In this document: one piece after another, positions 4,151 through 32,280 of the stretch
How the letters are laid out: each line of letters starts with the position of its first letter
Position numbering within the stretch: position 1 is the stretch's first letter
The notes under the pieces: generated by a model
Database searches by the model: none
Told to the model about the DNA's origin: nothing
The model's input: only the letters and a program-made list of their open reading frames with translations
Source of the DNA: an uncultured Ectothiorhodospiraceae bacterium
Lineage (GTDB): Bacteria > Pseudomonadota > Gammaproteobacteria > UBA9214
Assembly: GCA_947258615.1 (NCBI GenBank)
Contig: CAMYIX010000077.1
Location: forward strand, 1-32,280
Direction: 5' to 3'
Length of the DNA stretch: 32,280 nucleotides
Translations under genes and position numbers: made by a program

Positions 4151-4403
4151 TCACCGCGGAGACGCCGAGGACGCAGAGAAATTCAGAATTAAAATCATTC
4201 ACCGCAAAGACGCAAAGTGCGCAAAGAAAACATTATTATTGCAAAAACACCGATCCGGTAAATGACAAGCAAACGGTCAATTGTTATGGCCGAGGTTGGT
4301 TGTTGTTAGCAAGAATTGTGTTTTGACTTTGCGCACTTTGCGTCTTTGCGGTTAGAACTTTTTTGTGTTGCATTTCTCTGCGTCCTCGGCGTCTCTGCGG
4401 TGA
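4151..4403. repeat. Nested inverted-repeat element, copy A (lysA-dapF spacer)
   Basis: This fills most of the 319-nt gap between lysA and dapF. Outer arms at 4151-4182 and 4372-4403 match as inverted repeats at 31 of 32 positions. Inner arms at 4201-4226 and 4327-4352 match at 26 of 26. Between left outer and inner arms is a tag (TTCAGAATTAAAATCATTC); between the right arms is an unrelated 19-nt spacer. The inner arms enclose a 100-nt core (4227-4326). The arms themselves are built of CGCAGAG/CGCAAAG-type short units. A further arm fragment (CCTCTGCGGTG) lies at 4431-4441. The core matches copy B near 31972-32068 in reverse orientation. No coding function is seen. Confidence 0.88.
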
Positions 4404-7590: not shown

Positions 7591-8328
7591 CGGGCAACCC
7601 CGGGATCAACAACACAAAAATGCAGTTATTTGTAGTCAAATTATATTAAAATACGCGAGCAGTAGTTAAATGTCGGCAATGACACCCAGAGAGATCGTCC
7701 AGGAACTGGACAAGCACATTATTGGCCAGGACGCCGCCAAGCGGGCCGTGGCCATCGCCCTGCGCAACCGCTGGCGACGCATGCAGGTCGATGAGCCACT
7801 GCGGGCCGAGATCACCCCCAAGAACATCTTGATGATCGGACCCACCGGTGTCGGCAAGACCGAGATCGCCCGGCGTCTGGCGCGGCTGGCCCGGGCACCG
7901 TTTATCAAGGTGGAGGCAACTAAATTCACCGAAGTTGGCTATGTTGGCCGTGATGTTGAGTCGATTGTCCGCGATCTTGCCGATGTTGCGATCAAGCTGG
8001 AGCGTGAGCAGGCCATGGACAAGGTGCGCCACCGCGCCGAGGACGCCGCCGAGGACCGCATTCTCGAAGCCCTGCTGCCCGCGCCCCGGAGCTTGGCACC
8101 GGGCGAGACGGCCGACACCGACTCGGACACCCGCCAGAAACTGCGCAAGCGCCTGCGTGAAGGCCAGCTGGACGAGCGGGAAATCGAGGTCGAGGTCTCC
8201 ACCACACCCGTCGGCGTGGAGATCATGGCCCCGCCCGGCATGGAGGAAATGACCAGCCAGTTGCAGGGCATGTTCCAGAACATGGCCGGCAGCCGCACCA
8301 AGGCGCGCAAGCTGCGTATCCGGGACGC

Positions 8329-8393
8329 GCGCCGCCTGCTGTCTGACGAAGAGGCCGCCAGCGCCGCCTGCTGTCTGACGAAGAGGCCGCCAG
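8329..8393 (+). repeat. 32-bp tandem duplication inside hslU
   Basis: Positions 8329-8361 and 8361-8393 are identical 33-mers offset by 32 nt, sharing one base. The unit contains CTGTCTGACGAAGAGGCC and encodes [10 protein letters not shown] in the HslU frame. Since 32 is not a multiple of three, the second copy shifts the frame. Deleting one unit restores [17 protein letters not shown], which aligns with HslU proteins. The identity of both copies indicates a very recent event or an artefact. Confidence 0.97.
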
Positions 8394-8394
8394 G

Positions 8395-9030
8395 ATGATC
8401 AACGACGATGACATCAAGCAGAGTGCGCTGGAAAATGTCGAGCAGAATGGCATTGTCTTTATCGACGAAATCGACAAGGTGACGCGCCGCGGCGAGTCCA
8501 GCGGACCCGACGTGTCGCGCGAGGGCGTGCAGCGCGACCTGCTGCCGCTGGTGGAGGGCAGCACCGTGTCAACCAAACACGGCATGGTGAAGACCGACCA
8601 CATCCTGTTCATCGCCTCCGGCGCCTTCCACATCTCCAGGCCTTCGGACCTGATCCCGGAACTGCAGGGCCGCCTGCCGATACGGGTCGAGCTGGATGCA
8701 CTGGGCGCGAAAGAATTCGCGCGCATCCTGACGGAACCGGATGCCTCGCTGACCGAACAGTACAGCGCACTGATCGCCACCGAGTCGGTCACCCTGGAGT
8801 TCAGCGAAGACAGCATCACGCGCATCGCCGAGATCGCCAGCGACATCAACGAACGCACCGAGAATATCGGAGCGCGCCGCCTGCACACTGTGATGGAGCG
8901 CCTGCTGGAAGCGATTTCCTTCGATGCCACCGACCGCTCCGGCAGTGTCACCACGATCGACGCCGCCTACGTCGACGAGCACCTCGGGCAGCTGGTGCAG
9001 GACGAAGACCTGAGCCGCTACATACTCTAA
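8395..9030 (+). CDS. C-terminal half of HslU, possibly reinitiated separately
   Basis: This 211-residue frame begins at an ATG that is an internal methionine of normal HslU. In this sequence the upstream half stops at the TGA of the same ATGA (8395-8398), and GAAGAGG lies 8 nt before the ATG at a workable Shine-Dalgarno spacing. Termination-reinitiation could therefore yield Walker A and Walker B halves as separate chains. Whether such halves assemble is unknown; no split HslU is known to me. If the duplication is an artefact this is simply the 3' half of hslU. Confidence 0.5.
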
Positions 9031-27341: not shown

Positions 27342-27543
27342 AAAACCACCATAGCCCCGTCATGGCAGCGATGCAATACAGTTCATCCGCGCTTTGACCC
27401 CGTCGATCGGATTCAAGCCCCTGTATTCAGTCATCATCCTGCCGGCTGCCGCCACGGTGTCCGGAACTGATCACCGCAGACGCAAGATCGCAGACCAGAA
27501 AAAAGTCTTCACCGCAGCGGATCCAGAGAACACCAAAATATTA

Positions 27544-27680
27544 ACCGCAGAGACGCAGAGGCCGCAGAGAAAACAATAAATATTCGCCAATAAAGAAACT
27601 CATCGAAAGTAGTAACAAATTAATAGTACGGTTTTTTGGTCAATGAGATTTTTACTCTGCGGCCTCTGCGTCTCCGCGGT
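27544..27680. repeat. Inverted-repeat element, copy C (between DUF4124 gene and glnA)
   Basis: Arms at 27544-27569 and 27655-27680 match as inverted repeats at 25 of 26 positions. They are made of the same ACCGC(A/G)GAGACGC-type units as copy A. They enclose an 85-nt AT-rich core (27570-27654) that does not resemble the cores of copies A and B. Decayed outer arm pieces are visible at about 27470-27530 (TCACCGCAGACGCAAGATCGC, TTCACCGCAG) and 27693-27728 (TTTGCGTCC, CTCTGCGGTGAAGG). The 454-nt gap holds no gene; 27342-27468 shows nothing recognisable. Confidence 0.8.
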
Positions 27681-27747
27681 GGAAAATCTTGTACTTTCTT
27701 TGCGTCCTTTACGACTCTGCGGTGAAGGATTTTTTTCCAGCCAGAAA

Positions 27748-31897: not shown

Positions 31898-32093
31898 ACC
31901 GCAGAGACGCCGAGGACGCGGAGAAATTCAGAATCAAAATCATTCACCGCAAAGGCGCAAAGGGCGCAAAGTCAAAACACAAATCTTGCTAACAACAACC
32001 AACCTCGGTCATGAAAAATGAACGTCTGTATGTCATTTCCCGGATCGGTGTTGTTGCAATAATGTGTTCTTTGCGTCCTTTGCGCCTTTCGGC
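31898..32093. repeat. Nested inverted-repeat element, copy B, with core inverted relative to copy A
   Basis: The left outer arm (31898-31927), the tag TTCAGAATCAAAATCATTC and the left inner arm (31946-31971) follow in the same order and orientation as in copy A. The core, 31972-32068, aligns over its whole length (about 85 percent by eye) with the reverse complement of copy A's core. A decayed right inner arm (CTTTGCGTCCTTTGCGCCTTTCGG) ends the element at 32093, and no right outer arm is seen. The element begins 34 nt upstream of the PP-loop gene start, where that gene's promoter would be expected. Confidence 0.85.
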
Positions 32094-32280
32094 AATTGCT
32101 CCTGCATTGCTCTACCTCCTGCATCCCTGGAGTCGTGCGATGAATAATGATGTTCGCTACATACAGCATTCTACCCCATGCGCAGGGCATAAGGTTAAAA
32201 AGCGGATGGATTCAGTGTGTTTCCGGGGTGCCCGGGGACGCGATTGCGCGTTCGCCGCAGACCTGCCGGAAGCAGCGGCG
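32094..32280. other. Unassigned right end of window
   Basis: Two short open stretches reach the edge and neither is recognisable: a plus-strand frame from ATG 32206 (MDSVCFRGARGRD...) preceded by AAAAAGCGG, and a minus-strand frame ending with TGA at 32212-32214 (...RAIASPGTPETH). One of them may be the edge of a real gene. Nothing else is seen between 32094 and 32205. Confidence 0.3.

Follow-up and report, generated by a model that had tools for sequence, protein, structure and literature searches.

Recurrent inversion of hairpin loops in a genus-specific family of nested intergenic repeats

ELEMENTS IN THE WINDOW

The window is the whole 32,280-nt stretch of DNA analysed here, from an uncultured bacterium of the Ectothiorhodospiraceae; it comes from contig C77 of a genome (G000 in what follows) that is 1.92 Mb long and 65% complete. 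It contains two copies, A and B, of a nested inverted-repeat element whose parts follow the order outer arm, linker, inner arm, core, inner arm', linker', outer arm'. Copy A (4151-4403) lies between lysA and dapF. In copy B the right outer arm is missing, and another repeat, at about 32090-32135, interrupts the right inner arm. The features, with the basis for each call in brackets, are:

4153-4178, + strand: left outer arm of copy A, with CGCAGAG-type heptads (repeat comparison)
4179-4200, + strand: left linker of copy A, the 'tag' TTCAGAATTAAAATCATT (93% common with copy B)
4201-4226, + strand: left inner arm of copy A, with CGCAAAG-type heptads (perfect 26-bp inverted repeat with 4327-4352)
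4227-4326, - strand: core of copy A, its TCAAAACACAA end at 4326 (core sequence model)
4327-4352, - strand: right inner arm of copy A (pairs with 4201-4226)
4353-4375, - strand: right linker of copy A (read from sequence)
4376-4401, - strand: right outer arm of copy A (repeat comparison)
27544-27723 (within 27525-27733), no strand assigned: third arm hairpin, with an unrelated core, adjoining glnA (repeat comparison and core model)
31898-31923, + strand: left outer arm of copy B (repeat comparison)
31924-31945, + strand: left linker, or tag, of copy B (match to A)
31946-31971, + strand: left inner arm of copy B (repeat comparison)
31972-32068, + strand: core of copy B, in the orientation opposite to that of A relative to the left arm (alignment and core model)
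32069-32089, - strand: right inner arm of copy B, truncated (inverted-repeat comparison)
32090-32135, - strand: a different, GGAGGTAGAG-containing repeat inserted in the right inner arm of copy B and not followed by a right outer arm

On folding, copy A gives a single long hairpin (ssDNA z = -15.6; RNA z = -17.1). At the glnA locus (locus 7 below) the core is missing in G000 and present in three sister species, among which both orientations occur. Elsewhere in the window, a perfect 32-nt tandem duplication (8329-8392) falls in the hslU reading frame region; hslU is split in the list of open reading frames (7670-8398 and 8395-9030), possibly by a frameshift or an assembly error.

DISTRIBUTION OF CORE AND ARMS

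The core was found in five of the 57 genomes searched, which represent five species of one genus (G000 to G004), and in none of the other 52. About 30 near-full core copies occur across the five species, together with fragments; the core sequence model gave 62 matches in these genomes, some of them fragments or reverse-strand matches on the same copies. When copy A was the BLAST query, 135 matches to arms and cores were obtained in G000. The arms are more widely distributed than the core: of 274 genomes sampled from the class, 8 (counting G000) contain the outer arm word. In a DapF search, Thiohalobacter was the cultured relative with the best match. Between lysA and dapF of another gammaproteobacterial MAG there is a hairpin with CACAGAG-type arms. 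We also noted similar triple-word arms, with the different words CACAGAG and CACGGAA, in other gammaproteobacteria at lysA-dapF or upstream of dapF, which suggests that arms of this sort form a wider class. The window had no match in Rfam at the gathering score, and a literature search with the arm words returned only unrelated eukaryotic work.

The elements resemble the REP, BIME and REPIN sequences and MITE-like repeats of bacteria (PMC3116915, PMC2817692, PMC3733652) in being short, palindromic, non-coding, intergenic and multicopy. They differ in that the arms have three heptads and lack a GTAG-type tag, in their long conserved core, and in showing no tie to the RAYT genes that turned up in these genomes. 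RAYT was considered as a mobiliser and rejected, because only two of 15 Y1_Tnp matches lie in an element and the copy-rich genome G002 has no Y1_Tnp match. The two Y1_Tnp (RAYT-like) genes situated between element arms (G000:C60:45996-46337 and G000:C10:28961-29158) seem to have been inserted into the core or next to it; since the second of them, the one inspected, has a different GTAG-type hairpin of its own, nested insertion is the more likely explanation.

COMPARISON OF COPIES A AND B

The first-pass annotation of the window had claimed that the left outer arm, tag and left inner arm occur in the same order in both copies, that the cores so enclosed are in opposite orientation, and that the inner arms of A are perfect inverted repeats. 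All three observations hold: 4153-4226 matches 31898-31971 directly (74 nt, 93%), 4235-4352 matches 31946-32063 in inverted orientation (118 nt, 89%), and 4201-4226 and 4327-4352 form a perfect 26-bp inverted repeat. When the cores alone are aligned, 80 of 91 positions are identical in the inverted reading, with a score of 69 as against 21 for the direct reading and a shuffle maximum of 15. The core sequence model, built from an alignment that itself contains A and B, places A on the - strand (E 9e-31) and B on the + strand (E 2e-31). Copy A also has a weak + strand match (E 1e-7), because the core is an imperfect palindrome, and the orientation call is still unambiguous.

The tag, which had been used as the marker of polarity, does not serve as one. 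Its inner half (AATCATTC next to ACCGC) is a common arm extension, found to the left of the core in seven copies, to the right in six and on both sides in one. Without that polarity the comparison of A with B could not by itself prove a flip, and the claim rests instead on orthologous loci. Moreover the core of B shows 85-86% identity with the cores at locus A but only 72-74% with its own orthologs, and the left linker of B is likewise of the A type. Since core and tag are both closer to the locus-A copies, an A-type copy has probably overwritten copy B or been re-inserted in its place. The A/B pair is thus not itself a clean flip; in one of the two copies the core has apparently turned round relative to the linker.

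CORE ORIENTATION AT ORTHOLOGOUS LOCI

Comparison of flanks yielded 13 orthologous loci with a core in at least two species, the original locus 4 having been split into two; the comparison covers five congeneric species, with one genome per species, all of them draft assemblies. Relative to the flanking genes, core orientation differs between species at seven of the 13 loci (A, B, 4b, 6, 7, 9 and 10), and the 48 ortholog pairs divide into 24 with the same orientation and 24 inverted. At least 10 flips are needed on the flank-derived tree ((G000,G002),(G001,G004),G003), and at least 9 on any species tree; from the conflicting quartet patterns it follows that flips recur. At locus A, for example, G000, G001 and G002 agree while G003 and G004 are opposite, and at locus B G000 agrees with G004 while G002 and G003 are opposite. 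Three of the seven loci are weaker, locus 10 because G000 has no more than a short fragment of the core there, and loci 6 and 7 because their cores are strongly diverged; the sequences at these three may reflect replacement instead of inversion.

The other four loci can be compared in detail. At locus 9 (G000:C8 and G002:C11) 79 of 80 positions are identical from the flank through outer arm and linker into the beginning of the inner arm, and the core is reversed, with 76 of 88 positions identical when inverted (86%) and a direct reading that scores at shuffle level. At locus 4b, G000 and G003 share left flank and linker (72/80) and a homologous right linker around a core that matches at 87 of 93 positions when inverted; at locus A the corresponding figures for G001 and G003 are 71/80 for flank and linker and 78/92 for the inverted core. 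At locus B a locus-specific core with a common 1-nt deletion is inverted in G004 relative to G002 and G003. As read from these alignments, inversion between the inner arms is shown at several loci, the core being reversed and its surroundings (flanking gene, outer arm, linker) conserved. In G004 at locus 4b the linkers have moved together with the core, which suggests that the outer unit was inverted there, through the outer arms. Both arm pairs therefore appear, from the alignments, to have mediated inversion. The proposal that members of the family have flipped during evolution is borne out by these sister-species comparisons, and the same reversed orthologous cores at conserved loci rule against two fixed ancestral element types.

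Another copy might instead take over a site in either orientation, through the palindromic arms or by inserting anew. Such ectopic replacement or repeated insertion fits copy B in G000, where core and linker are of A type and not those of its own locus, and it fits contig C53 of G002, which holds at a different locus a core 90% like that at G000:C10:17909. Core-less sites occur in other species, and the G003 and G004 cores at locus A show no tight grouping by locus. Against this, the inverted cores at locus 9, locus 4b (G000/G003), locus A (G001/G003) and locus B (G004/G002) are closest to, or have private motifs in common with, their own orthologs, and the adjoining linker and outer arm are conserved at all four loci, so we regard replacement as an unlikely general explanation of the reversed cores. 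Core-less sites were found at bioH-bioF, at ruvC-yebC and in G000:C41, and no target duplication could be defined at them because the intergenic regions are patchworks of other repeats or are too different.

Arbitrary setting of loop orientation by short-read assemblers would also produce mixed orientations, and a 50:50 ratio is what arbitrary choice would give; all five genomes are drafts, with several copies at contig ends. The perfect inverted repeats beside the core, however, measure 7-26 bp in near-full copies, and 16 and 7 bp at locus 9. The k-mers used in final assembly are usually longer than this, which makes arbitrary orientation by the assembler unlikely, and we consider an artefact very improbable.

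RECOMBINASES AND PROMOTERS

The first-pass annotation had also raised the prospect of an invertible segment with a linked invertase. No invertase was found near the elements, and a search with PF00239, whose positive controls gave signal, found no serine recombinase in any of the five genomes; with arms as variable as these, the reading as a programmed switch was not sustained. An inverton-like phase-variation switch worked by a site-specific recombinase would account for the perfect or near-perfect inverted repeats bounding a defined segment and for both orientations occurring between species. Tyrosine recombinases (XerC and others) are encoded in all five genomes, and one of them, XerC, lies in the window about 1.6 kb from copy A. 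That is the only case of linkage to an element, however, and XerC is a conserved housekeeping gene. The arms are not constant from copy to copy, many copies having short or broken ones, and the genes adjoining the elements are housekeeping genes (lysA-dapF, glnA, bioH-bioF). An invertible promoter in the core was considered and rejected, as one weak promoter-like match was found in the core of A and none in that of B. Given these points we think programmed inversion very unlikely. Known invertons (PMC11892184) are similar in that a segment lies between inverted repeats of 10-40 nt and occurs in both orientations; they differ in that here no invertase was found, the variation is known between species only, and no surface or phase-variable gene class is involved.

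It would be a long shot to suppose that the two-level hairpins, as a genome-wide family, still flip in living populations, with possible effects on the mRNA hairpin or on a weak loop promoter. Were it so, each of dozens of intergenic sites would have up to four states, given by the core within the inner arms and these within the outer arms.

PROPOSED MECHANISM

The earlier flip idea is right in substance, and is best described as recurrent hairpin-loop inversion in a genus-specific repeat family. We put at roughly two in three the probability that this inversion, as inferred from the sequences, is enzyme-free and most likely neutral, and that it affects dispersed nested intergenic repeats on an evolutionary time scale, with no phase-variation switch involved. 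The loop most likely flips by ordinary replication slips at the hairpin and not through a dedicated genetic switch. The long palindrome would adopt a hairpin or cruciform form, and its loop would then be inverted, and its arms made alike, when replication switches template from one short arm to the other or when the two recombine. No dedicated enzyme would take part in loop inversion, although recombination between the arms by RecA or another host recombinase is possible. The dispersal of the family to new loci, and the acquisition of an A-type core by B, would be separate, ectopic events.

Inner arms within an element agree at variable positions with a frequency of 0.70, as against 0.52 when shuffled (p=0.001; 21 copies), although this agreement could instead reflect selection for pairing. 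Loop inversion and within-element likeness of the arms together fit template switching between short inverted repeats, which is reported to yield both arm homogenization and spacer inversion; its repeated occurrence at such sites has been proposed to be common among proteobacteria (PMC8604942). That a spacer between short inverted repeats can invert has been described before (PMC8604942, PMC2903610), and loop inversion at hairpins is already known in chloroplasts and, with very short spacers, in yeast. In the cited inversions the spacer measures 2-5 bp (yeast genes) or 25-27 bp (trnH-psbA), which is short compared with the loop of about 90-100 nt here.

The template-switching system (PMC8604942) agrees with ours in combining spacer inversion with arm similarity, and in being recurrent and reversible; it differs in that our spacer is far longer and the mechanism here is inferred from sequences. 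Palindrome-flanked inversions are frequent and homoplastic in chloroplast intergenic spacers (PMC2903610), and in the minute inversions of trnH-psbA (PMC2903610, citing Kelchner and Wendel 1996) the loop of an intergenic stem-loop inverts in place, repeatedly and homoplastically, as here. The chloroplast case concerns a single site, whereas here there are dispersed bacterial repeats with loops of about 100 nt and two nested arm pairs.

This bacterial repeat family provides many parallel loci with readable flips of a loop of about 100 nt, nested at two levels, and so a natural system in which to measure inversion rate against arm length and spacer. Flips are frequent enough that orientation looks randomised between species about 13-15% diverged, and the orientation of such repeats is unfit for use as a phylogenetic or regulatory marker.

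INSERTIONS AND ARM EXPANSION

Some copies have been altered in other ways. The repeat of about 47 nt, GACTGCATGGATGCAGGAGGTAGAG...GAGCAGTTACCGA, that interrupts copy B (32090-32135) recurs inside inner arms in G000:C10, G002:C80, G002:C53 and G004:C4, and sometimes itself carries a further inserted segment. Another palindrome, of the GTCATTCCGGC...GCCGGAATCC kind, breaks up two cores in G003 (C55:4696-4934 and C127:3048-3273). At G002:C7:14590 an inner arm has been expanded into about six CACGCAAAG units in tandem.
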